A stretch of DNA of 64,000 bases from Siphonodentalium dalli (Eukaryota; Mollusca; Scaphopoda; Gadilida; Siphonodentaliidae): contig CP136068.1 in the NCBI GenBank assembly GCA_032622095.1, positions 159,483,465-159,547,464 of the forward strand. Reading direction: 5' to 3'. A model generated the notes under the pieces. That model was not told the origin of the DNA, ran no database searches, and saw only the letters and a program-made list of their open reading frames with translations. The translations under genes and the position numbers were made by a program. Each line of letters starts with the position of its first letter. The stretch's first letter is position 1. Positions 1 through 19,699 of this stretch are shown piece after piece.

Positions 1-1130
1 AGGAAGGCATATATATCAGTTTTGAAAACTAGTTACGTATATCTACCATGCGCCTTAATGAATTTATCTCATTTTGAATAGTACCATATTTAATTGGATT
101 TGAAATACACCCTCACCCCCTCAAAAATTCACCAACCGACGATGATTTGGTTCAATGATAGGCGGATGTCCCTTTAAATTTCAGTACTTTTTATGAGTTT
201 GAGTCGAATTCCTATTAGAGAAACTTCTGTTACCGCGATCGTGCTATTTTGAACATTAAAGGTCCACCCATTATGCACAAAATTGATGATTTTCAGAAAT
301 TTACGCCTCCGGAAAAAGTTGAAGTTCCGGCGACAGAGGGTTAATAATTGTCTCGCATAATCTGAAAATGTGTCGGTAGGGCGTAAAAATACAATAGCTC
401 AACAAAACAACACAGTCTGTGTTTATCAGTGCTTTCAAATTCGCTGCCCTGAACGATATTTGAAAAATATGAATTTTCTGCCTATAGTTTACAAGCATCT
501 AATTATTTTCCATAGGCGACAGTGTTAACTAGAAGTCCCGTCGGCCATGGGTTAAGCCTATTTGAACTTCAAGTGGTAAATTTTCTCTTAGAACGTCATC
601 CTCTGCACCAGTATGTGACAACAAACGCGCCCTTTTCGGTATTTTTTTCAAACCACAATCTTGCATTTCCACAACTACCCCATTCATTTACTGCACAAAA
701 ATCAGCAGCATAAAAATACCATACCCTTTCCATAACTTCGGAACCCCACCAGACTCTTCCTGGTCATCTAAATATACATGATCGCCATTTTTACGTAGGC
801 TATGATTTTCTGTTACCGGTTAGGGAAATTTCTCTTAATCATTATCAACCAATCAGCACCCATATTTGTTTTTATGCTGACTCGAATTCAAGAAGCGTAA
901 CTCTATATAATTAGTTGCTTGTAACCTATACTCACACTGTTGGTTATTACAGGAGACTGAATGTGGCGTATATCTCACGCACAATAGCTAACAAGAAATC
1001 CATAGTCAGAAATGGTAACGCCACCAATATTATATTATTACATATAAATAGAAATTATAAAAAATACATAAAATATTTTGATAACAATTGCGTTTAAACA
1101 AGTAATCCTTCAAATTATTACTAACAAAGC
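1..1130. other. AT-rich noncoding stretch
   Basis: No gene, RNA or repeat structure could be supported here. The open frames present are short (60-65 codons), lack recognisable motifs and are not bounded by convincing splice sites. Confidence 0.5.
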
Positions 1131-1389
1131 AAGTAAATGACTGTGGGGTCAGTCAATAGATTATAAAGACTTGGACTTATTATACTGTAAATACTGGGAC
1201 TGTATATTTTTAAATTTTAATCTAAAATTTAAATGAAATAATTAAAAGATAAAATTTAGCAAGTAGTAAAAGTTAATTTTCTTATTTAATTTTTTTTTTT
1301 TGGTTAAATAAAGCAATAATTTAAATGTAAAATTTAGTTTAAAAATAAAAATGATTGACCCTGGCTCTTCCAATGTTTGCGCGACTGAC

Positions 1390-1660
1390 CTGGTCAATTG
1401 TTCTTAAGAAGTTATTTTGAGAATTACTATGGAGGGAAATAGTTATGGCTGTGGCTTCGCAAGTAATTGACTTGGTGACGTGATATTAACAAATCTGAAC
1501 TCCAGTAAACCAAGGACGCTTCATACCAAATATAAGGTCAATAAATCATTCTTTAGAAGTTGTTTTAAGATTTACTATGGAGGGAAAGGATTGTGGTGCT
1601 GGCTTCGCAACTATTTGACCTCATTGTAACAAATATAAATATTAGTCACTCAGGCAATAT
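1390..1660. repeat. two-copy degenerate tandem repeat, ~148 bp period
   Basis: The block around tactatggagggaaa followed by ggcttcgcaa near 1425 recurs near 1573 with the same order of motifs (a caaatnt stretch follows each). It lies immediately outside the left end of the large transposon, so it is host flank. No coding potential was seen. Confidence 0.55.
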
Positions 1661-1666
1661 ATGTAT

Positions 1667-1672
1667 CTATTC
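1667..1672. other. left target-site duplication CTATTC
   Basis: Six bases directly abutting the left terminal inverted repeat, identical to 17859-17864. The match begins exactly where the inverted-repeat similarity ends on both sides, which supports a genuine insertion scar. Confidence 0.75.
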
Positions 1673-1758
1673 TATGGAAAGCCGAAGGGGACATGCTAGT
1701 TGCTAGTTGCTAATTGCTAGTTGCTAGTTATACTATAACCAATCAAAATCAACGTTAC
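1673..1758 (+). repeat. left terminal inverted repeat of the large transposon
   Basis: Begins tatggaaagccgaaggggac, continues as reiterated gctagtt units and ends with aaccaatcaaaatcaacg. The reverse complement lies at 17779-17858. Number and phase of the gctagtt units differ between the ends by a few bases. The aaccaatca core is a CCAAT box by sequence and lies about 90 bp upstream of the integrase ATG, so it may serve as promoter for the gene at each end (inference). Confidence 0.85.
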
Positions 1759-1829
1759 GAGGCACCCCTTGAAGCGTTTTTTTTTCAAGGTGTTTCAAAG
1801 TTTTTCCTCTTGATTTTCAACAATTGAAG

Positions 1830-1944
1830 ATGTCAGATGATACGGGAGGCGTTACGACGAGCTACTACTTCAATATTTTAATAAAGGCTATACGAATAAA
1901 GACATAGCCATAACAATCGGGATACACCATGATATTTGGAAAAG
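1830..1944 (+). CDS. integrase exon 1
   Basis: The ATG at 1830 starts 71 bases inside the left TIR. The first codons (MSDDTGG) are in one frame and the family-like segment RYDELLLQYFNKGYTNKDI is in the next, so a base appears lost near 1850. The exon ends at ag|gtatcc (donor 1945), phase 2. Joining to exon 2 creates a serine in front of KRTVKRRL, the usual position of the S-x-RT motif in this family. Confidence 0.68.
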
Positions 1945-2189
1945 GTATCCACAACTACTGAACTAGGCTATTCAGCCTATAGTATTGGCCCAAACAAAAA
2001 AATATAATATTCGGACCGACCACTCACAAAGACAATTCTATTATTATTATTATGTCATTATAAGCCCATACTTGCAACAACACAATACGTTAATTGCACA
2101 GGGGTCCGGGATTTTTTTTTTTATCATTTTATTATATCATTTTCTAAAATTAAGTTATTTATAGTGTCTGAATCACTAACTTCAAGCTA

Positions 2190-2440
2190 TAGACTCACAA
2201 TTAATCCACATACATTGATACAAATAAGTGTTCGATCACAATTAGCATGTATGGTTACGACCTTCAAAGTTCTATTATAACTATTAACTATTATGAGAGA
2301 AAATACAAAATCTTAGAATAGTTAATAGAGTTACTCCCCATGAATTAACAACGCTCAGAAAAGTACAGATCTAGAGTATGCTATTTTGTTTTCTGTTATT
2401 CTCTTGAGAGTTGTTATTGTCTGAAGACTAAAATCGAAGC
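2190..2440 (+). repeat. subterminal inverted repeat, left copy
   Basis: About 240 bp that reappear in reverse complement at about 13995-14230, including the ordered motifs tagactcac, cgatcacaattagcatgta, gagaaaatacaaaatct, gagttactcc and gtctgaagactaaaatc. Both copies lie within the 16.2-kb element, one toward each end, so they may be subterminal repeats of the element itself. Confidence 0.6.
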
Positions 2441-2760
2441 CAGATGATTTACGGAAAACGACTACTACGAGCTGCTACTCTTGAAAACCATGATATTTGG
2501 AAAAGGTATCCACAACTATTGACCCAAACAAAAGATATTATACCCACCGATTACTTACAATTTTATTATCATTGATAAGTTTGACATAAATAAGTATTTA
2601 TCTTAGTATAATGTTGGGATACAAAACAATACTTTAATAAATGCAACAAAACAATGCGTTAAATGCACAAGGATCCGGGATCATTTTTGTTTTATTTTAT
2701 CATTTTCTAAAAAATAATACAATAAAATAAAGCAAATTTTTTCCCGGACCCGTATCATTG
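2425..2760 (+). pseudogene. diverged second copy of the integrase exon 1 region
   Basis: Compare with 1820-2150. Both contain agatgat...acg near the start, catgatatttggaaaagg, tatccacaacta, cccaaacaaa, a run of attatta, and gcacaaggatccggg/gcacaggggtccggg at the end. The central part encoding NKGYTNKDI is deleted here. It looks like an old tandem duplication inside intron 1. Confidence 0.6.
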
Positions 2761-3049
2761 ACTGCATATATTAATAAAAAGAATTATGTTATTAGTGTCT
2801 GGACCAGTATCTTCGGGCTCAAGCAGGGGGGGGGGTAATACAAAATTAGCATGAAGGTGTGCAGGGTGGGTGGGTGGCCCGAGGGGCAAAAAACTCGTTT
2901 TTACAACCTCGTGCATTTTTTTTTTAGTAAAGACTTTTTGTGCCCTTATTTGACACTTGTATCAGTTTAAACCATATTATAAGAATTTGTAATCACCATA
3001 TTTATGTTACTGGGACATCATATGGGCCTTAGTGGAGATGTTGCATATA

Positions 3050-3568
3050 CACCCTGGTCAAGTGGTCCTGCTAATATGATATGATGCTGGTGGTCCTGCT
3101 GAATTGCTATGATGCGGGTAGGGCAAAATGATGCCGTTACGAAAAAGTACCGTTATTTGTTCTAATGTTGTCATTTCCATGGTGTTTTGCTAACCCGAGC
3201 GATTCGAGAAAAAAAACAGTGTGTGTATGAAACATTCAAGAGCATATTCATTTTAAAATATATATAATAATGCCTGTGCTGGTGCTTCTAAAACGAAGTG
3301 AATAACCATCTTGAATATAGTCGATTTTCAACAACTAATACAACCGGTATTAAAAATGTTTCGCAATAAATATGTTTTTGGATATTTTGATACGCATAAT
3401 GGCTTTTCTTGTATTTGTTCAGATTATTGGAACACTGCGAAAAAGACAAATAAAAAAAATATAACAGTACTTTTTGTTAACAGCATCATTTTGCCCTAAC
3501 TGCTTCATATCAATTCAGCAGGACCCAACCCCATCATAGCACATTAGCAGGACCACTTGACCAGGGTG
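3050..3568. mobile_element. MITE with ~115-bp TIRs, ATATA duplication
   Basis: The left end starts caccctggtcaagtggtcct and the right end is its reverse complement, ending agtggtcctg-type sequence mirrored at 3535-3568. Similarity extends about 115 bp inward, through gggcaaaatgatgc. ATATA lies at 3045-3049 and 3569-3573. An internal 62-codon frame has no recognisable motif. The outer about 30 bp resemble the unit of the 46-bp minisatellite at 46186-47002. Confidence 0.75.
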
Positions 3569-4898
3569 ATATATGAAACGGTGGGGTGAAAACAAATCCT
3601 TCCCGACACCCTTCGGAAAGAAGCGTCGAGGAATGTAAAACTGAAATAAATAAACTTGTCTTGATGTAACTAAACCCCAGATCAGTGTGTGCATGGGAAA
3701 AGAACGAGCAACTGTCTCAAACATTAATGTGACTATCAATGGCAGAATATAACTGTCATCAGACTGTTCATCACTGCATGAATCAAGCCAATCAGTGAAT
3801 TATTTGCATGTAGAAGTAAGTTGCTTTAGTAGACTAACATAAGTGGTAGGGAATATGTTAGATAATGGGCTGGTTGAAAGATAATCAGGAAATAGTTAGA
3901 AATTATGAAAGTGTGTGTATCCTGCACAATGACCTAGATTTACAGATGATCAGCAATTTATAAAACATTTTTTGTTTATTTAAAACAGCTCATGAAACAG
4001 GTTAAACTGTTATTTGAGCTAGATAGTTTTATGTGGTTTTAGACCAAATTTAGTTAAATTTGGGGGTGGGTGTAAAAAAATTGGGAGTAAAAAAAAAAAA
4101 TTGCAGGTGGGTCCCCGAAATGCCAGATGTCAGAAAAACGGCATACCTTCCTGCAATTTTAGTACTACCCTCTCCACCCCAACCTCAAGTCTTTGTTTGA
4201 TTTTACACAGTCGAATACTTCCCTCCATAGTTCTTACTAACCCTACCCCATTGTGTTAATATATATAGAGTTATTCCACTTGTATAAGTAGAGTGATAAC
4301 AGATTATCATAACAGATTATGAGAGTTCAGTCGTTTTACTCGTTTGCGGTTTTGAATAATTACAAGTCCAAAGCCATAACTTAGCATATGTTTTTGGCTG
4401 GGAAGCTGACAACATTGAGTACCGGTACGGTAATGTTATATATATGTCCTTAAAGTGATGTAGCCTGCTCATTCCAAGTGGGACAACGTACAACATCCAT
4501 GGAGGGTGTCCTGTAACGGAATATATTGTTTTAAATAAACATACTACGCCGATCCAAAAATGGAACAACGTAGTATTTCATGTCTCCTGTGTTACCACGG
4601 TAAGAGGATATCTTTGGCGGGGAAATTAAATGGATGTGTAGTACGAAAATCGTCAATAAAGAGCGTTTAATCATAGTAATACTGAAATGTTTGAAAAAAA
4701 AACAAATTTTATGTTACCCATGACTGATATAGACCTGCTCCAGGGGTGCCACCCACACCCACATCCACTCCCCATTGAGGATAATAGAAAAGGTCAGCAC
4801 GTTAGCTATAGCCCCCACCCTGTCTGAGGACGTATGGCCCCTGAGGTGGGGGGTGTACTGTATTCAGTGCACGTATGTCTATATACCGTCTGTAACTG

Positions 4899-4978
4899 AT
4901 ATTTTCAAAGACATGGTCGTGTCGGGTGCATGTCAATATTCCCTTCTTTATTTATGTCAAATTTGCGTTATGTCCTGA
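4899..4978 (+). pseudogene. weak integrase-core fragment
   Basis: Translates to DIFKDMVVSGACQ, close to DMFKDMVESGAFQ in exon 3 of the integrase (about 6873-6911). Downstream nucleotides also share gtcaaatt. It is too short for more than a tentative call of a broken, displaced copy. Confidence 0.4.
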
Positions 4979-5057
4979 ATGTGTTTGCCCAATTGTGGGT
5001 GATGGAGTTAAGTTGAGTTGTTTCTAAAACAACTCACACTCCAATTTTATTTATCAG

Positions 5058-5237
5058 CAAGAGAACAGTAAAACGGCGGCTCAAAGTACTGGGACTAAGA
5101 AGGAAAGGATGCACTGAATGGATGCAGGATGTAATAAATGCAGTGACGTTCGAACTGAAGGATGGGGTAGGGCGTCGAATGGGCATGCGGCAGATCTGGC
5201 AGCGACTTCAGATTAACCATGGGTTGGTTGTAAAAAC
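5058..5237 (+). CDS. integrase exon 2 (HTH-like segment)
   Basis: 180 bases, fully open. The acceptor is ttatttatcag at 5047-5057 and the donor gtaaat at 5238. It encodes KRTVKRRLKVLGLRRKG followed by an RQIWQRLQINHGL segment, the conserved region preceding the DDE core in this integrase family. The preserved splice signals and phase argue for true introns. Confidence 0.72.
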
Positions 5238-5424
5238 GTAAATAATCAATCCGCCATGCACGATCTGAATCCAGCATTTGAACATTTTTGTTTTTGCTGT
5301 GCCCTTTGGAGGGATCTAAAATCCGAAAGCATGTTGCCAATATGTAAATTAAATAATGATCCACCGATAATAACATGCAGTAGCAGCACAAACTCTATAA
5401 AACATTCTGAAGTTTATCGTTTAA

Positions 5425-5855
5425 ATGTAATCGATTCGATTCGATGCTCCCCCGTATCATCAGATTGCAACAAGAACAACATCAATTTTTTTTTTAAATG
5501 CCGCTTCAGTTATCAGAATCGATAAATTGTCAAAAAAATAGTGCTAACCATAGTCAACTATAGTATAAAATTGCACAAAACGTTATTTATCAACATTTTT
5601 TTAACGAAATTTTGCCGGAAATATCTAACACCCAAAGCCACTTGATTTTAGAGTTATCCATTTTCATCCGCAATTTGGTCTGAGACCGTCGGTTTGACGA
5701 ATATTTGCCAGGCCGCCACAAATTACATATCTCGAGAAATAACAGATTTAAAAAATCAATATCTGATCACTCTGAGCTTTGATGGGCGGATTCATCGACT
5801 CGAATAAAATATTAAGAAATAGAAATGTGGGAGCGTTAATTCGGATTATGCATCT
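5425..5855. mobile_element. TTAA-flanked MITE within integrase intron 2
   Basis: Flanked by TTAA at 5421-5424 and 5856-5859. The right end gattatgcatct matches the end of the element at 37043-37871, and the interior is similar along its length to 57876-58244. TTAA duplications are typical of piggyBac- and Kolobok-type transposition; no transposase is present. Confidence 0.6.
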
Positions 5856-6411
5856 TTAAAATGTGCAAGAAAATGTTGGACTGGATGCAGGTAAAATCTG
5901 AAATTGTAGAAAATGGTGATATAGAAAGCGGTACTCATAAGATTTCAAAATGGCGTAATCACTTTTCCCAGCATAGGGAATCTGAGTATTAGGGGACAAT
6001 CTAATTGTGATATTTACCGTTTGTATTATTACTAAACGCTCTTCAAATTATTGAAAGGGCACATAAACCTGTGTCCCTTAGATATAACTTGTTCTTTGAT
6101 TGTTTAATTTTCCAACAAGTAATGCGTTTTAGACCAACAGTGTAGCATATTATTCTACGGATTGTCAATTACATTAATTAATTTTGAGTTTTAAATGGCT
6201 GTCACTGCTGGCACTGCGTTGGAACCAACGTTAGGCTGTAAGTTTCCAACATTTGGAAAGTTTGGGATACATGTTTCAACCCATGGTGGGATGCACTGTG
6301 TGGAATTTTAATTTAAATAGTAATTTAGCGAAGATGTCGATAGTGTTTCGCCTTGTTTCAGGTATCATATCTGTATACCCATTATATTGGACGTTTACCT
6401 TTTTTTTTCAG

Positions 6412-7241
6412 ACAAACGGTGCGTGATGTGATATCACTGATTGACCCCGAGAGGAGCGAGCTAATGAAGAAGAGGCGTCTGCACCGTCGAGTATACAAAG
6501 TCGAGGGGCCGGATCATTTCTGGCACATAGACGGGAATGATAAGATTAAGCGTACGGTTTCGCTATCAGCGGCTGCATGGATGGGTGGAGCACAAGATTA
6601 TTTGGCTGCATGTCGACACAATCAACAAAGACCCAAAATTAATCTGCAATTATTATCTGAATAGCATTGATGAGCTGCGGAGGATACCCCGCATCTTGCG
6701 AATTGATCCTGGAACAGAGAATGTTTTGCTCACCGATGTACATACGTTATTGAGGGAACATAACAATGATCAATATTCAAAATTTCCGGTATTTGTTGGC
6801 TCTTCAAACCACAATCAGCGCATTGAACGCTTTTGGGGGTATCTCCGACCTTCCTTTACCCAGCATTATATGGATATGTTCAAAGATATGGTTGAGTCGG
6901 GGGCATTTCAGCCCGGTGAACAAAGTCAAATTGAACTTATCAAATTCTGTTTTCTTCCTGTCCTTCGGAACGAAATAGAGCAGATAAAGAATCATTTGAA
7001 TGCACATACCATGCGAAAGGTGAAGGGGAGCGAGACGCCACGAGGTAGACCAAACTTTATTTATGACAATCCAGAAGCGTTTGATGGCTTGCGATGCGGC
7101 ATGCCGCTTGACCAACAAGACGTAGGCATTTGTAAAGAAATGGTCGGTCCACAAGGTAGTGATTTGGGCTGTTCCGACGAATTTGCGGAGTGGGCATTGT
7201 CAAAAATGTTGGAGTCGGATTGGGACATACCTTTCTTCTTT
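6412..7241 (+). CDS. integrase exon 3 (DDE core), two frame breaks
   Basis: Opens at ttttttttcag|a. The first frame runs to about 6555 and carries the first catalytic Asp (HIDGND). A short piece of about 35 bases continues in a second frame, and the third frame runs from about 6590 to 7241 with the second Asp (RIDPGTEN) and Glu (QRIERFWG). Each break is explained by one missing base; the 830-base length then restores phase 0 at the gtgagt donor (7242). Later residues include GRPNFIYDNPEAF, a family signature. Confidence 0.75.
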
Positions 7242-7279
7242 GTGAGTTATGAATATATCACGACAAACCTCTTACTATA

Positions 7280-7610
7280 GCTGAAGGGTCACTCTCACCA
7301 AAACAGTGCTGAAGGGTACACATGGTTTGAAAATGTGCTGAAGGGTACACAGGGTTTGAAAATGTGATTGGCACAAACACCGTTACTTAAACTGTGTTTC
7401 TGAAAGTCTAGCACCCATTAGCAGTTTGTTCTCAGTTCATTTTAATGTTCATTGGAATGTAAACAATTATTCTCTAACATAAATCATGGCATATATATGA
7501 AAACTAAACGTAATTTAGAACGATATTTCAAACCCTGTGTACCCCTCAGCACATTTAAAAAACCTATGTAGCCTTCAGCACCTTTCTTGGTGAGAGTGAC
7601 CCCTTCAGCT
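7280..7610. mobile_element. hAT-like MITE with ~85-bp TIRs
   Basis: The left end gctgaagggtcactctcacc is matched in reverse at 7591-7610 (ggtgagagtgaccccttcagc). TTACTATA occurs at 7272-7279 and 7611-7618, a probable 8-bp target duplication. Repeated tgaagggtacaca-gg-tttgaaaatgtg blocks lie inside each arm. It inserted just after integrase exon 3. Confidence 0.8.
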
Positions 7611-7619
7611 TTACTATAT

Positions 7620-8096
7620 ATCACCATCCTCTGAGTGATACCCAATTTTCCATAGTGTAAAACTGAGTTCTCAATTAGAATAATTTAAACATACAAACAA
7701 ACCCCTTATTAACTCCAAGAGCACTGCCCGTGTAGATAACATCAAATAAATCACCAACACGGTATACTTTTCTGAAAGCAGTTATGCCACAAATTATGTG
7801 CGCCACTCTTAGAACGAGGATATGATGAGAGTTCGTGAAAACTGGATATAATTACGACTATAATAAGAATATGAACAAGAGAGACGATTTTATTCAGTAT
7901 TGTGAATATTTACATTACATGTATTAATTATGATTCAACTTTATTCTCTCAACATGATCATTCTTTAGTCACATGTTCATCACTGTGTGTTCTCTAGATA
8001 AAATGTCTTTAATTTTGTTCAAGAACTCTTTGGATTATTTTATAATCATGTAATTAAAATGTTAAGTCAATAATTTCACACAAATGATTATCCCAT
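7620..8096. other. noncoding interval inside the large transposon
   Basis: No exon can be assigned with confidence. On the minus strand about 7815-7670 is open (VYRVGDLFDVIYTGSALG) but without matching splice context, so it is only noted. Confidence 0.4.
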
Positions 8097-8960
8097 TATG
8101 ATATCACAAAATTAAAGGCCTTTTACAATAACTGTATGTGTTTCCAACACAGGGAAACTGTGCATTAAAGGGACACAGTTAATCACATGGCTAATGGTGG
8201 CAATTGCTATATTTAATAATAACAAAACGCTCTTTAAGTGAAATTTGACATACTGCTGATATAGTATTTAGTATGATCCCGCGTGTCATTAAATGACACG
8301 ATGAATCAAACTAGATACACTATGATATCACAAAATTAAAGGCTTTTTACAATGACTGTATGTGTTTCCAACACAATGAATCTGTGCATTATAGGGACAC
8401 AGTTAATCACATGGCTAATGGTGGCAATTGCTATATTTAATAATAACAAAACGCTCTTTAAGTGAAATTTGACATACTGCTGATATAGTATTTAGTATGA
8501 TCCCGCGTGTCATTAAATGACACGATGAATCAAACTAGATACACTATGATATCACAAACTTAAAGGCTTTTTACAATAACTGTATGTGTTTCCGACACAA
8601 TGAATCTGTGCATTAAAGGGACACAGTTAATCACATGGCTAATGGTGGCAATTGCTATATTTAATATTAACAAAACGCTCTTTAAATTGTTAAAGGGCAC
8701 AATCACCCCTTCCGTAAAAATTTAAGTCTGGTGACAGGACAGTTCTGAAATTTGACATACTGCTGATATAGTATTTAGTTTGATCCCGCGTGTCATTAAA
8801 TGACACGAGGAATCAAACTAAATATTTCATAATAACGAAACGCTCTTTAAATCATTGAAGGGCACTATAAAAAGACAATTCTGAAATTCGAATTACTGCT
8901 CATGTAGTATACAGTTTGATCTCGCGATGAATAAAGCTCAATACACTATGATATCACAGA
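8097..8960. repeat. tandem repeat, ~224-bp unit, 3-4 copies
   Basis: Units start at tatgatatcac near 8097, 8321 and 8545, with a last partial near 8946. Copy three contains an additional segment of about 70 bp (gttaaagggcac...). Each unit carries the palindrome cgtgtcattaaatgacacg and the motif aaaacgctcttta. Related aaacgctcttcaaatt sequence also occurs at about 6030-6090. Confidence 0.8.
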
Positions 8961-9019
8961 CACGATCCATTGTTATTAAAGGCACACTTAATGTTCGAAT
9001 GACCAGATTACATTATACA

Positions 9020-9360
9020 CAACATATCACACAGTATATACCAGTTGGAAGAGGAACCAAAAACAGATATATTCCACCAGAATACGAAACAGCTGTGGCA
9101 TAGGAGTGTCCACCAAGTGATAGATATTCTCAGGTTCATTCCAATACTTCCCCATTTATAACCCAGAATGTATCAGAATTCAAACTAAGAGATAGAGTTA
9201 TTCCCCTTCCATTGAGAATAATATACTTTGTAGTCCAGTCTGGATCAGAATTAATCAAATAACACACCTCAGTACCTCGACAAAAACAATGTTCCCAGTT
9301 TATTCGACGGGACCAGTTGATAATACAATGATTTGAAGCTTCCTGTTTCAAATGGTATAA
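9020..9360 (-). repeat. ~350-bp duplicated segment, copy A
   Basis: Similar over its whole length to 11585-11935: ccagttggaagag, acagctgtggc, gagtgtccaccaagt, cccattgagaata, ccagtttat and cttcctg/cttcctt appear in the same order. On the minus strand both copies keep INW-H-CR-T-VC-DP--T-K--ILNG, which may reflect an older coding segment, but both carry frame breaks. Function unknown. Confidence 0.6.
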
Positions 9361-9779
9361 AAATTAAATAGGCCTTTAAAATACTAACAAATACATTTAC
9401 ATGAGTTAATTCTGTCAATACGAGATATGCACAGAGAGGTTGTGGGCTACAAACCAACTTTTCTTGATAACTAATAACTTTTGATGAATACTTGAACTGC
9501 CTTTCTATGAGCATTATATGTCTCAGAATGACGCGTTGAAGTCATAAAAATAAACCTTTAACGCGATGTTTGGGTCCCAAACAAAAATGATCCATGTTCA
9601 AGGCATAGGTATGATATGGTATAAATAAAGAACGTTTATTTAACTTTTGTGCTAAAATGGATGTGACAATGGAAGGAATGATATAGGAGTTGGAGATTGC
9701 ATGCTACAAAATCAAAAAAGTCTTAACAATTATCGACCCCAAATAAATATGAATCAAATCATTGAAATTTTGCAAAAAG

Positions 9780-9930
9780 CAAATGCATTCTCTTATATAT
9801 GCGAGACTATATAAGAGAATACATTGGCCTAACAATATTTACCATGACATTGTAATTAAGGCACGCATTCTTATATATATTCGATGGTCCCTATGGGAGA
9901 CCCGCATATATATATACGAGAATGTAGACT
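9780..9930. repeat. hairpin repeats with cattctcttatat arms
   Basis: Arms gcattctcttatatatgcga and ctatataagagaatac face each other at 9783-9822; a second weaker pair lies at 9865-9926. The same family occurs at about 57385-57600 and 63150-63275, each next to a gctggtgcagcattaaa-type sequence (reverse strand here near 9938). Confidence 0.6.
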
Positions 9931-10060
9931 AGCACATGATCTTTAATGTTGCACCAGAAGGGTTAAACACTAATTGTGTTGCAGTCACAGTTAGTTGTGA
10001 TGGATGTAAAATTATGAATGCACTCGACTAGATGCACAATGATAAAATTAGATTATACAT

Positions 10061-10496
10061 TTAAAGTTGTCTTTCTTGATTCTGCAACCAATCTCTGAAA
10101 CTCCTATAAAACTCGTCATCCACGCCCACAACGTTCTCTGTCACATACAATACACTAACATAATTAGTTCTTATATGTTGCATGAAATATTCCAGACATG
10201 AGTCATCGTATATATATTTAAGATTCATCATGGAATGCTTTAATTTGAAAAACTTTTCTTTAGACTCAACGGGGAGAGAAAAAAATAGTCCCCATCCACA
10301 TTCAATTTTTTCATAAACAAACGACGCTTTGTTGAAAACAGCCTCCAGCTTCGCATCAGCGTGCATTAGAACTGTCCCTTCCGGAAAGGATCGTGTAGCT
10401 AGTTCACCAGCCAGGCTTTGGTCTCCTCTGGACCTCTCCTCCCTCCGCCTCTCCATCAACACCTCCTTAACGGCATCAATGGTAACAGTCTGTCGC
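10061..10496 (-). CDS. zinc-ribbon gene exon 4 (terminal, 145 codons)
   Basis: Acceptor tgtcttccag, exon from 10496 with one base completing the codon begun in exon 3; open to the stop at 10063-10061. Highly charged start (KEVLMERRREERSRGDQ), then a compact globular-looking part with FPEGTVLMHADAKLEAVF and YVSVLYVTENVVGVDDEFYRSF. No known motif recognised. Confidence 0.7.
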
Positions 10497-10589
10497 CTGG
10501 AAGACAACAATAATACAAAATTAATGACTCTATCATGTTAATTTATGAAAATTAGAACTAAAATGGAATTAATTACAACAAATATTTAA

Positions 10590-10900
10590 AATGATAGTGT
10601 CAATGACACTGTAGCTCAACTTGGAAAGGGAAAAATTTCATGTTCTAGTCAATGGAGTGATTAGGAATGTGTAAAGTTGAAAGGCCTACTAGTTATGGAA
10701 ATAGTAAAAAGGCTGCTGGCGGTCATGTTTTTTGGCCGAATAACCCCAAAAAGACTTGTTCATATCTACACGTCATTGTTAGCATCAGTACGACCTGTAG
10801 CCCGCGCCAAAGGAAATTGTTGACGGACACACGCACACACGGACGACGGACGCCAAACCATGGCAATAGCTCAAACTTACAAAGTAAGTTGAGCTAAAAA
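10590..10900. repeat. dispersed short repeat ending gttgagctaaaaa
   Basis: Starts at tgtagctcaacttgg and ends at taagttgagctaaaaa, making short inverted ends, with gttgacggacacacg and gacgacggacgcc before the right end. Sequences of this style are, from memory, abundant in molluscan genomes. A related internal part (ggccaccggcagccatgtt...gaccccaaaa) occurs at about 60550-60615. Confidence 0.55.
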
Positions 10901-11206
10901 TGAAGAACATTTATTATCAACTTATAATATGTAAGTAATTGTATCCATATAATGTCATGCAATATGTACTGTTTACGTCAGGTGACTGATAATTAATTAA
11001 ATTACTTACAGGGACACTATAAAAGTTTACTAATTCTTTACCCGAGCAATGCCTGGTGCCCCCTCCCTGCAATTAAGATGTTTTTTTCTTCTTCAAATAT
11101 GATGCAAACTGTTTAGAGGTGAAATTCTGAGATAATAGTTATTATTTTTGCCAATAATTTAATATAAATTAATTCTTACTGCCATATATATCTGCCTTGC
11201 ACTCAC

Positions 11207-11518
11207 TCGTTGTTGTCAGCATCGGCGATTGCCAGATAAATCCTTGTCGTACCCGGGTATTTTTTCATACGATTTACAAACTCGGCTAGATTAAAATCAG
11301 TCGCGCTGATTTCTTGATCTTCAGTGTCCAGGAGACCCCTCTTCGCTGTATTCACGTCTACATGTTGCAATTACGTCATCGTATGTGGCAGTTGCACTTA
11401 TACATAATTTCCTAAGCTTAGTGGGTTCTCCAGGCTGCGTCTTCTGCAAGACCCACTTCCCGCCCTTCTTCCTCTTGACCCCAAACTGTACCACAAATTC
11501 CTTTCTTCTTATTTTGGC
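11207..11518 (-). CDS. zinc-ribbon gene exon 3, one frame break
   Basis: Opens after ttttaacag at phase 0 and ends at ga|gtgagt. Encodes KEFVVQFGVKRKKGGKWVLQ and LRKLCISATATYDDVIATC, then, after a one-base shift at the 11336-11339 C run (G on the coding strand), EISATDFNLAEFVNRMKKY. The length of 312 needs one base fewer to keep phase 2 at the donor, in agreement with a single extra base. Confidence 0.7.
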
Positions 11519-11584
11519 CTGTTAAAATGAAACAAATTATTTAATTAAAGCCCCAATTAATTTACTGATGCTCAGATAACATTT

Positions 11585-11935
11585 TACACAACATATTCCA
11601 AATTATGTACCAGTTGGAAGAGAGACCAAAATACATCTATTCCAACATAATACGGAACAGCTGTGGCCCATGGGAGTGTCCACCAAGTTATAGAGACTCT
11701 CAGATTCCTTCCAGGACTTCCCCCGTTGTCAACCCAGAATGCATCATAATTCAAACTAGGAGATAGAATTACTCCCTCCCATTGAGAATAACAGCCTTTA
11801 CAGTAAAGCCCGGATCAAAATTGAGCACAGAACACACGTCGGTACATCGACAAAACAAAACATGTTGCCAGTTTATACGATAAGTTGATAATACTATGTT
11901 TTGGAGCTTCCTTTTTAAAATGGTATACAATGTGG
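11585..11935 (-). repeat. ~350-bp duplicated segment, copy B
   Basis: Partner of 9020-9360, in the same orientation, here inside intron 2 of the zinc-ribbon gene. On the minus strand the downstream part reads WVDNGGSPGRNLRVSITWW, which looks protein-like, but frame breaks interrupt it. Whether it is an exon remnant or a noncoding repeat is undecided. Confidence 0.55.
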
Positions 11936-12207
11936 AATATGTGATCCTGAGATTCGAAAATTAAGTGGGCCTTTAATGATATATTTTAGCAATCTGTTGT
12001 GACCTATATATATTATCGGCTTATTACCCGTCTACCCACACAACCCCAAGGCCGAACACATCCCTATGTGCATTTGTCATTCTTCGTTATCGCTTGAAAT
12101 TTAGAAAACAAATGTTGAAAAACATTTTTCAGACCTCTGAGGCTGGGAAATTAAAATAGAGCATACACTAATACCCATTCGCCTGTGCGTATGGTGTGAC
12201 AACTTAC

Positions 12208-12323
12208 TTGTGACCCTTCTGATGTCAGGGAAGATGCACCGGGTCTGTCGCCTCTTATCTTTAGCAAGCGGGCTTGCCTCACCTTTTCCAGTTTCTCTAA
12301 CAGAATGTCTTTTCTGTTTGGCA
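12208..12323 (-). CDS. zinc-ribbon gene exon 2
   Basis: 116 bases, open throughout, acceptor aatatctgttccag and donor gtaagt. Encodes PNRKDILLEKLEKVRQARLL then GDRPGASSLTSEGSQ. The first two bases complete an ATG codon with the final base of exon 1, so an alternative promoter could also use this methionine only if spliced that way. Confidence 0.7.
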
Positions 12324-12356
12324 CTGGAACAGATATTGAAAGTGATTGTTAGACTT

Positions 12357-14040
12357 TGGGTTCAATATTTTAATGGCCAACCTTAGAAAATATTTATGGG
12401 CCCATACCTTTGATTCTTGGCATATAATATGAATGTTGAGGTATATCTGGACCCTCCTGCGTTGGTACATGACACAGGTATAGCTGACTTAGGTTTTTTC
12501 TGCACGGGCTCCAATTTGGGGTCCAATATTTTAAGGGCCAACCTTAAAAAATATTTATGGGCCCATACCTTTGATTCTTGGCATATAATATGAATGTTGA
12601 GGTATATCTGGACCCTCCTGCGTTGGTACATGACACAGGTATAGCTGACATAGGTTTTTTTCTGCACCGGCTCCAATTTGGGGTTGAATATTTTAAGGGT
12701 CAACCTTAAAAAATATTTATGGGACCATACCTTTGAATTCTTAGCATATAATATGAATGAAAACATTTGAATCAGCTGGCTTAGATTTTAATCTTCAGAC
12801 AATAAAAACTCAATATTTTAAGGGCCAACCTTAGAAAATGTTTATGTAATATGAATGTTGAGGTATATCTGGACCCTCCTGCGTTGGCACATGACACAGG
12901 TATAGCTGACTTAGGTTTTTTCTGCACGGGCTCCAATTTGGGGTTCAATATTTTAAGGGCCAACCCTAACAAATATTTATGGGCCCATACCTTTGATTCT
13001 TGGCATATAATATGAATGTTGAGGTATATATGGACCATCTTGCGTTGGTACATGACACAGGTATAGCTGACTTAGGTTTTTTCTGCACGGACTCCAATTT
13101 GGGGTCCAATGTTTTAAGGGCCAACCTTAAAAAATATTTATGGGCCCATACATTTGATTCTTGGCATATAATATGAATGTTGAGGTATATCTGGACCCTC
13201 CTGCGTTGGGACATGACACAGGTATAGCTGAATTAGGTTTTTTTCTGCACGGGCTCGAATTTGGGGTTGAATATTTTAAGGGCCAACCTTACAAAATATT
13301 TATGGGCCCATAACTTTGAATTATTGGAGTATAATATGAATGTTGGGGTATATCTGGACCCTCCTGCATTGGGACATGACACAGGTATAGCTGACTTAGG
13401 TCTTTTCAGCACGGGCTCCAATTTGGGGTTAAAAAATTTAAGGGCCAACCTTAACAAATATTTATGGGCCCATACCTTTGATTCTTGGCATATAATATGA
13501 ATGTTGAGGTATATCTGGACCCTCCTGCGTTGGGACATGACACATGTATAGCTGACTTAGGTCTTTTCTGCACGGGCTCCAATTTGGGGTTCAATATTTT
13601 AATGGCCAACCTTAGAAAATGTTTATGGGCCCATAACTTTGAATTATTGGAGTATACTATGAATGTTGGGGTACATCTGGACCCTCCTGCGTTGGAACAT
13701 GACACAGATATAGCTGACTTAGGTTTTTTCTGCACGGGCTCCAATTTGGGGTTCAATATTTTAAGGGCCAACCTTAGAAAATGTTTATGGGCCCATAACT
13801 TTGAATTATTGGAGTATAATATGCATGTTGGGGTATATCTGGACCCTCCTGCGTTGGGACATGACACAGATATAGCTGACTTAGGTTTTTTCTGCACGGG
13901 CTCCAATTTGGGGTTCAATATTTTAAGGGCCAACCTTAAAACATATTTATGGGCCCATACCTTTGAATTCTTAGCATATAATATGAATGAAAACATTTGA
14001 ATCAGCTGGCTTAGATTTTAATCTTCAGACAATAAAAACT
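12357..14040. repeat. 162-bp satellite array, ~10 copies
   Basis: The landmark tttggggttcaatatttt recurs every 161-162 bp (near 12360, 12521, 12683, 12943, 13104, 13266, 13428, 13589, 13751, 13913), with one 260-bp interval. The terminal segment from ttcttagcatataatatgaatg to cagacaataaaaactc appears at both 12730-12811 and 13965-14041, suggesting duplication of a whole block. Because 162 is 54 codons, long open frames arise on both strands; they are not genes. The array sits in intron 1 of the zinc-ribbon gene. Confidence 0.9.
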
Positions 14041-14230
14041 CCCAAGAAAAAACGGAAAACAAAATAGCATACTTTAAATCTGTACTTTTCCGAGCAATGC
14101 TAATTTACGAGGAGCAACTCTATTAACCATTCTGAGATTTTGTTTTATTTTCTCAGAGGACAGGCCGTAAATTGATTAATACTACATGCTTATTGTGACC
14201 GAAAACTTATTAGCATGTGACCTGTGAGTC
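13995..14230 (-). repeat. subterminal inverted repeat, right copy
   Basis: Reverse-complement partner of 2190-2440; see that entry for shared landmarks. Its inner end merges with the tail of the 162-bp satellite (cagacaataaaaactc matches gttgttattgtctg at 2411-2424). Confidence 0.55.
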
Positions 14231-14675
14231 TAGCACCCCACCCACAATTCCACGGGAAAATCAATGGAGTGAGAGTGTTATGGTCGGACCCTCGGATGGT
14301 CCTTACAAAGGTTTAACAAGCCGCGGCTGATTTATTGGAGGTTGGTCAAGATAACGTGAATGGATGCACAGAGAAGATGCTAGATTAGATAGTGATTTCA
14401 AGATAAGATATATTTATTGACATAAAACACCATAGTGATAGGTAGATGTCACAAACACAAAGAACATAGTGGTATGCGAAACAGAAATAACAGTATCAAG
14501 TAATAATATTCAAAAGTTCGGCGTATATATATGTAACTATGGCATAAAAAACAATATATGTACACTGTAGTAGCACAATTGTATAATTAGGGGTCAGTAA
14601 TAGTGTTCTATAACATCGTAGTTTAGTTATGGGCATGTGATATTGTTTTGTTACATATATATATAATACTAGCCT

Positions 14676-15377
14676 TTATACGAGTGCCAGTCTCCTCATT
14701 TCAAAGAATGATAAAATTGCCTTACTTAAGATATTTGCGATATCGGATTTATCCGCTTTTAGTAGGAATGAGAATTTTTCCTGATTAGTCATTGCTATAA
14801 AATTGTGATTAGTGCATGCTATTTTATTGTATAATTGCGTTCTTTCTAGTGCGTAAAGTTGACATTCGGTGAGGAAATGAAATTCACTTTCGATTTGGTT
14901 TAAGTTGCATTGTGTACAACGTCTGTCTTCGAGTGAAACTATTGGCCTTTGATGTCGGCCCTTTTCTATTTGTAATGAATGGTTACTTATTCTTAGACGT
15001 GTTAATACTTCTCGTTGTTGGGGTCGACTAATTTCTGTGAGATATGATTCTAGAATAAACGAGGATTTCACTGTGCGATATGTACGTAATTTGTTGCCAT
15101 TTATTGATGTCGAGTCATCAAATATATCACGCAAAAACTTGTCTCTGTGTAATGCCTTAAGTGTATTTTCGGTGGCGGACACGCTACTTTGATTTGGTGT
15201 AACCATATTTCCAACAAGTTTTATAGTTAGGCTGTGTGGTGACTTGAACGTTGAGCCATGGTCCCGCGAGAATGTTGAAGATGCTTTCAATAGTGGGTTG
15301 ATATCTTTGGCTTGGAGTCGTAAATGGTACTTGAGACAACGAGTATATGCTTCAATATATGCGGGATATTCACCCAA
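14676..15377 (-). pseudogene. LINE C-terminal region with zinc knuckle
   Basis: Third frame, 233 codons. The C-terminal motif CTQCNLNQIESEFHFLTEC is the CCHC knuckle found at the end of many LINE reverse transcriptases. It stops at 14676 after MRRLALV. Confidence 0.88.
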
Positions 15378-15766
15378 CTCAGCCCTAACAGCATGATTTG
15401 AACTTTTTTTCCGACAGATAATATCATTTTGCAGAATTTTAGATGAACTTGTTCACATGGGGTCGTGTCAGTGATATTTAGGTCAGGCGCCCATATCTCA
15501 CACCCATAGAGGAGTATGGGTTTGATGATCGCATGGAAGAGATGCAGATATATATTTATCGGAAGCGGGTGTTTAGTATGTATTTGTGCTCGAATACAAT
15601 GGAGGGATTTGAGAGCTTTGTTTTTTAGTTCCTCCTGTGCAAGACGCCAAGTACCATTACGGTGTATTGTTAGGCCAAGGTAGCAATATTCGTCGCATAT
15701 GTTCAAAAGTTCTGACCCCATATGGAAAAGCGGGGTGGTTGGTGCTTTGCGTTTAGGTATTATCAT
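15287..15766 (-). pseudogene. LINE RT thumb region, second frame
   Basis: Continues the RT from MIIPKRK, includes YLGLTIHRNGTW and ILLYGCEIWAPD, motifs typical of the segment after the FADD box in non-LTR elements. It shifts out of frame at an A7 run (complement near 15408-15414), where one base appears to be lost. Confidence 0.88.
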
Positions 15767-15770
15767 TATT

Positions 15771-16982
15771 TTAGTTGTTTTGTTTATTTACTGCCAATTT
15801 GTTGCGCGAAGAAAAAACATGTAATTTATCGAGACATGCCTGCAAACCTTTAGGTGAGCGGGAGCATAACATTAGATCGTCTGCGAATAAGAGATGATTT
15901 ATTTCAGTGTTATTAATGATAGCCGGGTCACACTCTGGTGTGAAATAGCTGCCTATATCATCGATAAATATCTTGAACAATGTGGGCGATATTACATACC
16001 ATTGCCTTACCCCAGTTACTGAAGTTTTAGGTGGGCTAATGCCTTCTTTTGTTTTTATAAGATAGTCACTACGTGTATACATCGATTTTAACAAATTTAG
16101 CGGATTCCCGCTAATTCCCTTTTCTTGTATTTTTTGGAAAAGCTTATCTCTGTCTACCGAGTCGAATGCCTTTTTAAAATCCACGAAGGCTAAGTATAAT
16201 GGTTTGTTTCTATTCCTAAAGTCTTCAATTACAGTCCGTAGTATGTGAATGCAGTCTATTGTGCTATGGTTTTTTCGGAAACCGAATTGGTGGTCACTTA
16301 TAAGTTTGTTGGCTTCCAGGTATTCGTCAATGCGCGAATTTATTATTTTATTAAATAATTTTCCGATGTTGTTACTCACAGCTATCGCACGATAATTGTT
16401 GGGATCGCAGCGATCTCCCTTCTTGTGGATGAGCGTTAATATGGATTTGCTCCAGTTGACTGGATATTCCTTCGAATTAAGTATATGGTTGAACAGTTTG
16501 AGGATTTCGTCCATCATATGTGGAATTATTAATTTAAGTAATTCGTTCGATATGTTGTCTTCGCCGACTGATTTATTTCTTTTCAGCGCGCGTAAGGCAG
16601 TACGAACCTCCTCTGCAGTTATGCTAACGTTATTGAAAGGTTGATTGACTTTTAATTGGGGATTCACTTTTCGGGTAGGGGATATTTGTTCACCTGTAGA
16701 TATGTTGTCCCCATAGAGGTTATTAAAGAAATCCACAGCAGTATCAGGGTCTAATGTGTTGTTTTCGTTGTGCGTTTGTTTGTTATTAAACGATTTCAGT
16801 GTTGACCAGTACTCTTTTGGGCTAATGGATTTAATTTCTTGTAGCTTGTTAGTTAGATCACTATAGTATATACGGCGCTTATAATTGAAAATTTTTTTAT
16901 ATTTCTTTTTCGCTACAAAGAAGTCATGTAAAATGTTTTTGTCAAATGGAAATTTCCGTAGTTTTTGTGCCCGAACTTGCAT
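15771..16982 (-). pseudogene. LINE reverse transcriptase domain
   Basis: 403 codons. Conserved RT blocks in order: NKSVGEDNISNELLK, ILTLIHKKGD, NYRAIAVSNNIGKL, FGFRKNHSTID, AFVDFKKAFDSVDRD (first catalytic Asp), GVRQWYVISPTLFKIFI and HLLFADDLMLCS (catalytic FADD). The Gly-Cys usual after GVRQ is replaced by WY, a likely mutation. The frame stops after NKLAVN because one base is lost near 15771; the reading continues in the next frame. Confidence 0.92.
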
Positions 16983-16999
16983 CCGTCATTCTGGTATAA

Positions 17000-17167
17000 A
17001 TACGAAATTACAACACAACAGCGCTCACTCGTGCTGATGCTTTCAATGCAAACATGATTCGTGAATCATCTGGTCCTGTGGGGATTATCTCAAATAGAAA
17101 TACCCCCCAAGGCCAATGGCAATCTAATAAGTATAATAATAGGGAAATGAGATTTGAAGATCAATAA
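17000..17167 (+). pseudogene. unassigned plus-strand coding-like fragment
   Basis: Open for 55 codons up to a stop at 17165. The reading RADAFNANMIRESSGPVG then SNRNTPQGQWQSNKYNNR looks protein-like in composition. It begins right at the edge of the truncated LINE and lies antisense in intron 1 of the zinc-ribbon gene. It may be a remnant cut by the LINE insertion, or chance. No family recognised. Confidence 0.3.
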
Positions 17168-17398
17168 ATTAAGCCTTATATTGAGTTATAAATATTAATT
17201 TAAGGTTAAATTGTACACTTGTATTAAGTTGTAAACAAGTTGGAACCATTAAATTTAATATAATAATATTTATTATTATTAATAATTTAATAATAATTAT
17301 ACCTAGTAGTAGTAATATTCAATTTTGAATTTACTCTAATTGACTCAATGACTGACTGTCATTGTCATTCACGTTTTTGTTAATGTTCTAATATTTAC

Positions 17399-17681
17399 TA
17401 GATGGTTGTACAGCCACTGGAACATCCGTGGCTGAACTACTATAACTACTTGAACTTGAAGTTGTTGTGGACGAACTGCTAGCGTTATTAGTACTAGTAC
17501 TCCTAGTATTCCTACTACTAGTAGTAGTGGCAACAAGCGAGGTTCCACAATTTGCACATACTTTAAATGTGGACTCCACATCGTGCTCGCATTGTGGACA
17601 TTTACGGATCACAGCTTCGCTGCACTGTGAGCAGAACTTAAACCAGTCCTTCAGCTCTGCACTGCAACATAAACAGATCAT
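17399..17681 (-). CDS. zinc-ribbon gene exon 1
   Basis: The ATG at 17681 gives MICLCC. Cys pairs at 3/6, 17/20, 28/31 and 42/45 form two zinc ribbons of the DZR type. They are followed by about 40 residues almost entirely Ser, Thr, Asn and Ala, then DVPVAVQPS. The donor a|gtaaat at 17398 gives phase 1. Without splicing the frame would end four codons later (SKY stop). CCAAT sequences lie upstream in the TIR and at about 17756. Confidence 0.75.
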
Positions 17682-17778
17682 TTGGATGTGGCGCCCTTGA
17701 AAAATTTCAAAACAATATCAGTTATAAGTATTTGTTAGCTTGTGTCATTGTATTTGATTGGTTAAAATTAGCGTCCAT

Positions 17779-17858
17779 GTGACGTTGATTTTGATTGGTT
17801 AGTATTACAATTAGCAACTAGCAACTAGCAAATAGCTTGTCCCCTTCGGCTTTCCATA
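17779..17858 (-). repeat. right terminal inverted repeat of the large transposon
   Basis: Reverse complement of 1673-1758. Reads gtgacgttgattttgattgg inward to outward and ends gtccccttcggctttccata. The flanking CTATTC at 17859-17864 matches the left flank. Confidence 0.85.
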
Positions 17859-17864
17859 CTATTC
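17859..17864. other. right target-site duplication CTATTC
   Basis: Same six bases as 1667-1672, directly outside the right TIR. Confidence 0.75.
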
Positions 17865-18295
17865 TGTATATTAACTTATTGGGTCTTACGTGTCTTGAGA
17901 TGTCTAAATATTTTTTGATGGACAGATCGCGCAAGCGCAAGGGACCCCCGCCAATCTTCTCTGTTGTGATTCCAATTGTTGGCTTATTAAATATGCACAT
18001 ATGCTTAAGATACAGTCGCGCGCGAAGCGCTCTCCCGTAGGTCGGGTTTGGGATCCCAGTTAATGAAAATATCATTGAAATAATCAGTTTCCCCCAATAA
18101 ACATCCATATATTCAATATACATGTTTTTGGAGCCGAATTAGGTAGTCCATATTGGACGCCATCATGGATTTTTGTTTTTTTAATTTTCACACATATTTA
18201 TTAGTTATGTGGATGGAGTTCTCATTAAACATCACACCTTTATATTGGTTATGTGGATTTAGTTATCATTACACCTCACATCCTTATATTGGTTA

Positions 18296-18424
18296 CAGTA
18301 ATACCCAAAGTAATTTACCACTTAACCACAGCAGAATTATGGGTAATTTTTCAGCATTTAAAATCCTGACAAATTACCTATAATTCTGCTGTGGTTAAGT
18401 GGTCAATTACTTTGGACATTATTG
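18296..18424. mobile_element. palindromic Tc1/mariner-like MITE, copy 1
   Basis: 129 bp, nearly a complete palindrome: cagtaatacccaaagtaatt at the left, aattactttggacattattg at the right, with ccacttaaccacagcagaat arms folding on a short aaatcctg centre. Flanked by TA (18294-18295 and 18425-18426), the duplication used by Tc1/mariner elements. Confidence 0.75.
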
Positions 18425-18465
18425 TATGTGGATTGAGTTATCATTAAACCTCACATCCTTATATG

Positions 18466-18587
18466 GGCTAAAGTAATTGACCCCTTAACCACAGCAGAAT
18501 AATGGGTAATTTTTCAGGATTTAAAATCCTGAAAAATTCCCCATAATTCTGCTGTGGTAAAGCGGTCAATTACTTTGGACACTACTG
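18466..18587. mobile_element. palindromic Tc1/mariner-like MITE, copy 2
   Basis: Same family as 18296-18424 and 55386-55600. The arms ccttaaccacagcagaat and attctgctgtggt are kept, and the centre is caggatttaaaatcctg. The left terminus is eroded to ctaaagtaatt. Confidence 0.7.
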
Positions 18588-18859
18588 TATGTAGATGGAG
18601 TTAAACCTCACATCAGTGTGTTGGGGAATTTGGACCTTGACTTGGGAGATTTGGGTTTTAACGCAACAAATGCAAGTACACAAATTTCTTATGTAGCCAG
18701 AGTTTTTCTTGGATAAGATGAGTTTGATGCCTGCTTACATTTCAAAATGTTGTCAGTTTTGTATTGTCTGCAGCGGTACTCGGCACGTTGAAGCAAAAGT
18801 TACAAGAGATAAAATGTGTACGTAATGAGACTATAATAAAAATGAAAACATTAATTGAG

Positions 18860-19690
18860 GGAGGGGTGGGCGATACAGGGAACTAAGGGTTGAACCGATA
18901 TAAATTTGTAGAGCGATAACAACCAATGTTGACATATTATGCATCTCAACTCTACTGTTGCAACATGGATATAAAATAGGGGGGTGTCAGAATCTTAGTC
19001 ATCTATATATATTGCCATAATAGTCATTTATGGACTTCTATAGTGGTACAATGCAAATTAGAATCAAATGATAAAAATATGTATGTAACACAACTATACC
19101 GATGAAAATAAAAATAATAATTTAGGCCGGGATAAGATTTTGGGTTGCTTATATGGACACGGAGAAAAAGGGGTTCGTACCGATGAATTGACATAACTTA
19201 GTGGAGCGATGTTGCCATGTAATGCATCGCGACTGTACTAAAGCAGCAATGATATAAAATTGGGTGGGGGAGGTATGAAATTATCTCCACCTCTATACAT
19301 GTAGATGGCACCAGGATTATATAGAAAGGAATAGCAATTGATATACGTATATGGTATACTATAGTAATACCATAGATATATAAGTACAAGTATCACGTGA
19401 TAATATATTACGTAACGTGACTATAGCAATGAACAAAATAAATAAATTGGACCGGGGTTAGAGGTTGGGTTGGTTATATGTGGATAATTGGATATGGAAT
19501 TCATACCGATGGAACGATAAAAATTAGTGGAGCGATAAAGACCAATGTTGACACTTAGTCAGGCTACGCGGGGGAAATAGGGGTTGATACCGAAATAAAT
19601 TTGTCGGGTGATAATGACCAATGTTGACGTATAAAGTAACGCGACTGTACTGTCGCACAATTATCAGGTAGAACCGGTCAAATATGGACT
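18860..19690. repeat. degenerate tandem repeat, ~300-bp units
   Basis: Three diverged units share accgatataaatttgt/accgatgaa, gtggagcgat, accaatgttgaca, catcgcgactgtact and atataaaattgggt in the same order. No coding potential. Confidence 0.5.
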
Positions 19691-19699
19691 CTGGTGCCC

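Follow-up and report, generated by a model that had tools for sequence, protein, structure and literature searches.

A 64,000-nucleotide stretch of contig CP136068.1 of the scaphopod Siphonodentalium dalli (GCA_032622095.1, positions 159,483,465 to 159,547,464; hereafter the window) carries an integrase-type transposase gene and a zinc-ribbon gene (gene 2) that converge from two matching terminal inverted repeats (TIRs). The locus raises the question whether both genes belong to one transposon, and what gene 2 does for it. We conclude that the locus is probably one cut-and-paste transposon with two genes, of the IS3EU/GingerRoot kind, and that the window copy has decayed. The anatomy described below is highly probable; that gene 2 is an accessory protein of transposition is proposed tentatively, at slightly less than an even chance.

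Termini, insertion site and other copies

We found that the TIRs enclose 16,186 bp (window 1673-17858). Their alignment scored 114 and none of 200 mononucleotide shuffles exceeded 30, which confirms the matching ends noted in an initial annotation made from the sequence alone. The hexamer CTATTC lies on both outer sides; random pairs of window 6-mers agreed in 110 of 200,000 cases. As an empty-site query, 100 + 100 bp of flanks joined with a single CTATTC were searched against the animal's own genome (2.23 Gb, nine contigs, written C1, C2 and so on). All 40 scored places (the best 40 of 1,304 candidates) covered query positions 1-200 at 97-98% identity. These matches are other copies of a host repeat and not the allelic site. 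Because a single CTATTC joins the flanks end to end there, we conclude that the element inserted precisely into one member of a dispersed repeat family. The empty sites that the annotation had looked to other individuals or species for are thus present in the same genome. The host repeat (window 1573-1672 and 17865-17964) has at least 40 copies, 97-98% identical over these 200 bp.

The element contains a long interspersed nuclear element (LINE) at about 14402-16982 (about 2.6 kb; RVT_1, E 9.9e-35), which is absent from the copies on C4 and C1, where the corresponding site is uninterrupted. The LINE is therefore not the element's own, and the element proper measures about 13.6 kb. The proposal of a single 16.2-kb transposon holds for the paired TIRs, the CTATTC duplication and the empty sites, and has to be shortened by the nested LINE. 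No duplication was seen around the LINE, beside which the site is six bases short.

A search of the genome with the left TIR (best 40 of 670 candidates scored) revealed six further end pairs, where the annotation had called for a search for copies of 10-20 kb with 6-bp duplications. Paired ends do occur elsewhere, at sizes of 0.6-12.6 kb. The pairs on C3 (10,568 bp), C6 (8,559 bp) and C1 (11,364 bp) have target site duplications (TSDs) of 7 bp, a short pair on C3 (631 bp) has one of 6 bp like the window, and those on C4 (12,601 bp) and C7 (about 2.1 kb) have none. A TSD of 6 or 7 bp is thus present at 5 of the 7 end pairs, window included. One end only was found at C3:13.6 Mb and C7:100.3 Mb (11-20 kb read), and no full end within the 11-20 kb read at C6 201.4 Mb and 201.9 Mb, which have one TIR match each. 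The C1, C4 and C6 copies are 95-99% alike over long aligned blocks, which suggests that they moved fairly recently. The window copy is more diverged from these three (mostly 85-97%) and is decayed, with frameshifts in transposase exons 1 and 3 and in gene 2 exon 3.

The two genes and their sister family

Both genes start where the initial annotation had placed them, the transposase at an ATG at 1830, 71 bases inside the left TIR, and the zinc-ribbon gene at an ATG at 17681 on the minus strand, 98 bases inside the right TIR. The two convergent, spliced genes that it described are predicted as open, phase-consistent models in the C4 copy; in the window copy both are frameshifted. The C4 transposase model has exons at 164-279, 2564-2746 and 3932-4808 (element coordinates), joined in consistent phase at GT-AG introns, and encodes 391 amino acids (aa) without a stop. 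It matches PF24764 (rva_4) at E 8.1e-34 (117.5 bits against a cut-off of 26). At E <= 1, Pfam listed only rva_4 and a weak helix-turn-helix, with no HHCC integrase domain before the core. D140, D199 and E239 are our own assignment of the putative catalytic residues from motif positions. C1, C4 and C6 each have an open last exon with a 314-aa frame, which is the longest frame in C4; in the window this exon is frameshifted.

The predicted splicing was compared with some of the 98 database relatives of the transposase. The metagenomic protein P0008 aligns without gaps across both splice junctions, at 42% identity to the model. Among the proteins whose starts were examined (P0001-P0007 and P0010), P0003, P0005 and P0006 carry 16, 43 and 11 residues before the intron-2 junction (between R and QTVRD) that are unrelated as judged by eye, suggesting that these three share intron 2; P0004 has only 3 such residues before QTVRD. 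P0001, P0002, P0007 and P0010 start inside the exon and are therefore uninformative on intron 2. Transposase matches of 44-67% identity also cluster within about 2.1 Mb at C5:259.1-261.2 Mb, perhaps by local amplification.

Gene 2 of the C4 copy is predicted to have four exons (192-456, 2572-2687, 3378-3691 and 4406-4841, counted from the opposite end), GT-AG introns and an open frame of 376 aa. Its product has a double zinc ribbon (PF12773, E 2e-8; PF13240, E 5.2e-8), after which come a Ser/Thr-rich linker and a short charged stretch; two further regions match no Pfam family. Between terminus and start codon there are 191 bp in C4 and 177 bp in the window copy. The window and C4 have the complete set of four exons; exons 2 and 3 are missing from C1, C6 retains exon 4 and a scrap of exon 1, and C3 part of exon 1. 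Across the genome we identified 51 exon-level matches, from 99% down to 37% identity. A TIR end lies 149-186 bp upstream of exon 1 at three of five further exon-1 loci (C6:84.4 Mb, C3:49.5 Mb and C5:204.3 Mb); none was found near exon 1 at C4:30.1 Mb, and at C6:96.8 Mb the TIR is 4.6 kb away. No relative of gene 2 emerged from the protein database by a word search that can miss distant or exon-split ones: the whole gene as query gave 3,888 short-word candidates and a profile of exon 4 gave 6,932, with no match at E <= 0.001 and E <= 0.01, respectively.

We calculated the nonsynonymous (dN) and synonymous (dS) divergence of gene 2 by NG86. Between C4 and C3:49.5 Mb, dS, dN and their ratio were 1.67, 0.17 and 0.10 for exon 3, 0.53, 0.089 and 0.17 for exon 4, and 0.53, 0.094 and 0.18 for the zinc ribbon. 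The ratio was 0.10-0.28 over six pairs for exon 3, and 0.16-0.17 for exon 4 in three family-1 copies, each against C3:49.5 Mb. Judged from these comparisons, gene 2 looks to be under purifying selection.

Moreover, the two genes occur together in a second, diverged family (family 2; the window belongs to family 1). Transposase exon 3 (62% identity) and gene-2 exon 4 (38%) were found together on C5 (204.30-204.32 Mb) and C6 (96.80-96.84 Mb), at both loci in the same convergent order as in family 1 and with transposase exon 2 at 64-65%. Both TIRs (TATGGAACGCCGGTCCGGCCA...) are present in the C6 copy (C6:96804401-96840627), at a distance of 36,227 bp, together with the TSD ATTACC; the extra length of this copy was read in part. 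No far TIR turned up in the 3.5 kb read at the C5 copy. Gene 2 of family 2 has exon-2-like and exon-3-like parts, the latter apparently split by a further intron. These matches are individually weak (exon 2, E 0.25; exon 3, E 5e-8 and 0.065) and gain weight only because of their order. Two short family-2 copies on C9 and C2 have TIRs and no TSD.

The features of the window copy are collected in Table 1. Units similar to the 224-bp tandem repeats between the convergent 3' ends occur in C3, C6, C4 and C1. The 162-bp tandem repeat recurs in the sister family, where it lies near transposase exon 2 and is 71-76% identical (L063 2611-3501), and close to the TIR of other copies (L038, L040, L042).

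Table 1. Features of the window copy, with the evidence for each
Feature	Position	Strand	Evidence
Left TSD CTATTC	1667..1672	.	Flank identity; single at empty sites
Left TIR, TATGGAAAGCCGAAGGGGACA...	1673..1758	+	TIR alignment, genome TIR search, paired ends
Transposase exon 1, frameshifted in window copy	1830..1944	+	Open reading frame, C4 gene model, comparison of copies
Transposase exon 2	5058..5237	+	C4 gene model
Transposase exon 3, rva_4 DDE core; frameshifted, diverged near end in window copy	6412..7252	+	Pfam, C4 model
224-bp tandem repeats between convergent genes	8097..8685	.	Repeat search
Gene 2 exon 4, C-terminal domain, 144 aa	10061..10496	-	C4 gene model
Gene 2 exon 3, frameshifted in window copy	11207..11518	-	C4 gene model
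Gene 2 exon 2	12208..12323	-	C4 gene model
162-bp tandem array, gene 2 intron 1	12355..13989	.	Repeat search
Nested LINE (RVT_1), outside element proper	14402..16982	-	Pfam; absence from C4 and C1
Gene 2 exon 1, with the start codon, the double zinc ribbon and a Ser/Thr-rich stretch	17399..17681	-	Pfam, C4 model
Right TIR	17779..17858	-	TIR alignment, genome TIR search, paired ends
Right TSD CTATTC	17859..17864	.	Flank identity; empty sites

Classification and known systems

The termini read TATGG..CCATA in both families, with GATGG at one end of the 2.1-kb C7 copy, and 6 of the 10 end pairs of the two families have TSDs of 6 or 7 bp. The transposase has an rva_4 core, which we take to mark IS3EU. 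In a tree of 34 transposase rows (five from this genome and 29 of the 98 database proteins), families 1 and 2 group as sisters (support 100/99), together with nine other members in an 11-row clade (99/99). Outside that clade fall all ten named animal proteins of the tree (from Tubulanus, Holothuria, Argopecten, two from Mercenaria, Patiria, two corals and two fish) and a compact IS3EU-like element of the same genome. IS3EU/GingerRoot elements have TA..TA ends and usually a 6-bp TSD (PMC10045372). The core, the ends and the 6-bp TSD fit an element of the IS3EU/GingerRoot kind, as the annotation had suggested. IS481EU, with TSDs of about 4, 15 or 25 bp and TNT..AYA ends, and Ginger1 and Ginger2, with TSDs of 4 or 4-5 bp (PMC10045372), were rejected against the 6-7 bp found here.

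The element shares the rva_4 DDE core, TIRs, TA..TA termini and 6-bp TSD with IS3EU/GingerRoot, and differs from it in the predicted introns of both genes, the large size, the 7-bp TSDs beside 6-bp ones and the zinc-ribbon second gene; the words intron, exon, zinc ribbon and zinc finger do not occur in the main text of PMC10045372. Fungal TET+ IS3EU families carry a transposase and an alpha-kinase gene in opposite orientations with a TET/JBP gene between them (PMC12730594). They have in common with our element the TAYGG..CCRTA ends, the 6-bp TSD and an oppositely oriented second gene, whereas the second gene here is a zinc-ribbon gene without an alpha-kinase match in Pfam at E <= 1. No TET/JBP match was found among the seven open reading frames (ORFs) of the window scanned with Pfam. 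Given these published fungal elements, a layout with two convergent genes has a precedent. The annotation knew of no described member with this second gene; two-gene IS3EU elements of the alpha-kinase kind are published, and an animal IS3EU with a zinc-ribbon second gene was not among the literature matches listed, a scope that leaves Repbase and Dfam outside and a Repbase-only description possible. An IS3EU-type lineage with an accessory gene new to the literature covered is our best reading.

In another transposase superfamily, KolobokP and Kol0 combine a DDE transposase with an accessory gene, which in KolobokP lies on the complementary strand; the accessory product is either a His-Me nuclease or the zinc-binding KolX (PMC9587614). 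By analogy, they embody the same principle. The compact element mentioned above (C1:106478642-106481710; L074 643-3711) measures 3,069 bp and has TACGG..CCGTA ends. All 20 of its 20 terminal bases are identical, and its flanks match at 5 of 6 TSD positions. It encodes a similar, rva_4-like transposase (36%), mostly in one 371-aa frame, and differs from the window element in that no gene 2 was seen.

Role of the second gene

From the 6-7 bp duplications, the TA..TA ends, the DDE enzyme and the short copies with TIRs only, we infer cut-and-paste movement. The transposase would bind the TIRs, cut at TA..TA and join with a 6-7 bp stagger, and each gene would be transcribed from a promoter in or beside its own TIR. 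With less certainty, the zinc ribbon of gene 2 might contact the end DNA or the transposase, and its two further domains might help in assembly or target choice. We assign this role to gene 2 because of its co-retention with the transposase, the signs of selection and the zinc ribbon. That gene 2 represents an undescribed accessory family needed for movement, making the element a two-component eukaryotic relative of IS3/IS481-type transposition, is a doubtful though reasonable extension. The metagenomic rva_4 transposase P0038 has a zinc ribbon fused N-terminally, ahead of the core; this hints that zinc ribbons can cooperate with an rva_4-type enzyme, in a single gene prediction from another branch of the tree.

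The unity of the element can be questioned in two ways. If the two ends had arisen separately, their pairing would be due to chance, a reading of negligible probability that we rejected on the exact empty sites over query positions 1-200 and the further paired copies. The length of about 13.6 kb without the LINE, the 6-bp TSD and the integrase would also suit an unusual Polinton or another virus-like self-synthesising transposon. Polintons carry genes for PolB, capsid, protease and ATPase. Pfam found no polymerase B, capsid, protease or ATPase in 7 of the 28 window ORFs (at least 80 aa, within 1-20000), the other 21 being shorter or repetitive, and C4 has no frame longer than the 314-aa transposase exon. 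The absence of Polinton hallmarks noted in the annotation thus held among the ORFs scanned, and the Polinton reading, very improbable in our view, was rejected.

The readings that leave the element intact and give gene 2 another role carry more weight. Gene 2 might act outside transposition and, for instance through an effect on silencing or ubiquitin pathways, shield the element or its transcripts against the host. The TET/JBP genes that fungal IS3EU and other DNA transposons carry are proposed to counter methylation (PMC12730594), and gene 2, although kept, is more divergent between the families than the transposase (38% against 62% in the last exons), as would suit a host-facing protein. 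We consider this unlikely: at E <= 1, Pfam found no silencing or ubiquitin enzyme domain in gene 2, and sequence searches of the PDB gave marginal matches only, two of which aligned the zinc ribbon weakly to the ubiquitin ligase RNF213 (E 0.15). Less probable again, gene 2 could have been captured from the host and ride along as a passenger without a role for the element. Its pairing with the transposase in two families whose transposase cores are 62% identical, the common domain order and the signs of purifying selection argue against this, while C1 and C6 speak for it, as they have lost parts of gene 2 and keep a transposase without indels.

That last observation also counts against the reading preferred here, as do several others, and C3 has neither gene whole; a copy might thus move with gene 2 supplied from elsewhere, or without any action of gene 2. 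C4, the sole copy with both genes open, lacks a TSD, as do the 2.1-kb C7 copy and the two short family-2 copies. All introns of both genes are deduced from sequence. In family 2, neither the first 700 bp of the C6 copy nor 3.5 kb of the C5 copy yielded transposase exon 1, and the middle of gene-2 exon 3 was not located. Close pairs have few changes and variable dN/dS (exon 4 within family 1, 0.32-0.65; zinc ribbon of C4 and the window, 0.44). Between families, exon 4 gave 0.23-0.36 with dS near saturation and one pair not computable. The values of 0.37-0.71 for zinc-ribbon pairs that include the C6:84.4 Mb exon 1 probably reflect a loss of register in the ungapped comparison. The AlphaFold models of gene 2 exons 3 and 4 were poor (predicted local distance difference test, 42 and 59) and were not used; nor was a Foldseek search with the low-confidence exon-4 model, which gave no match at E <= 0.001.

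To our knowledge, animal IS3EU-type elements have been treated as one-enzyme transposons. With a second gene at the opposite end that two diverged families have kept, the element allows a test of how an integrase-type transposon gains a partner protein; since copies with open frames and empty sites are known, this test should be easy. Gene 2 itself adds a protein without a relative in the protein databases covered.

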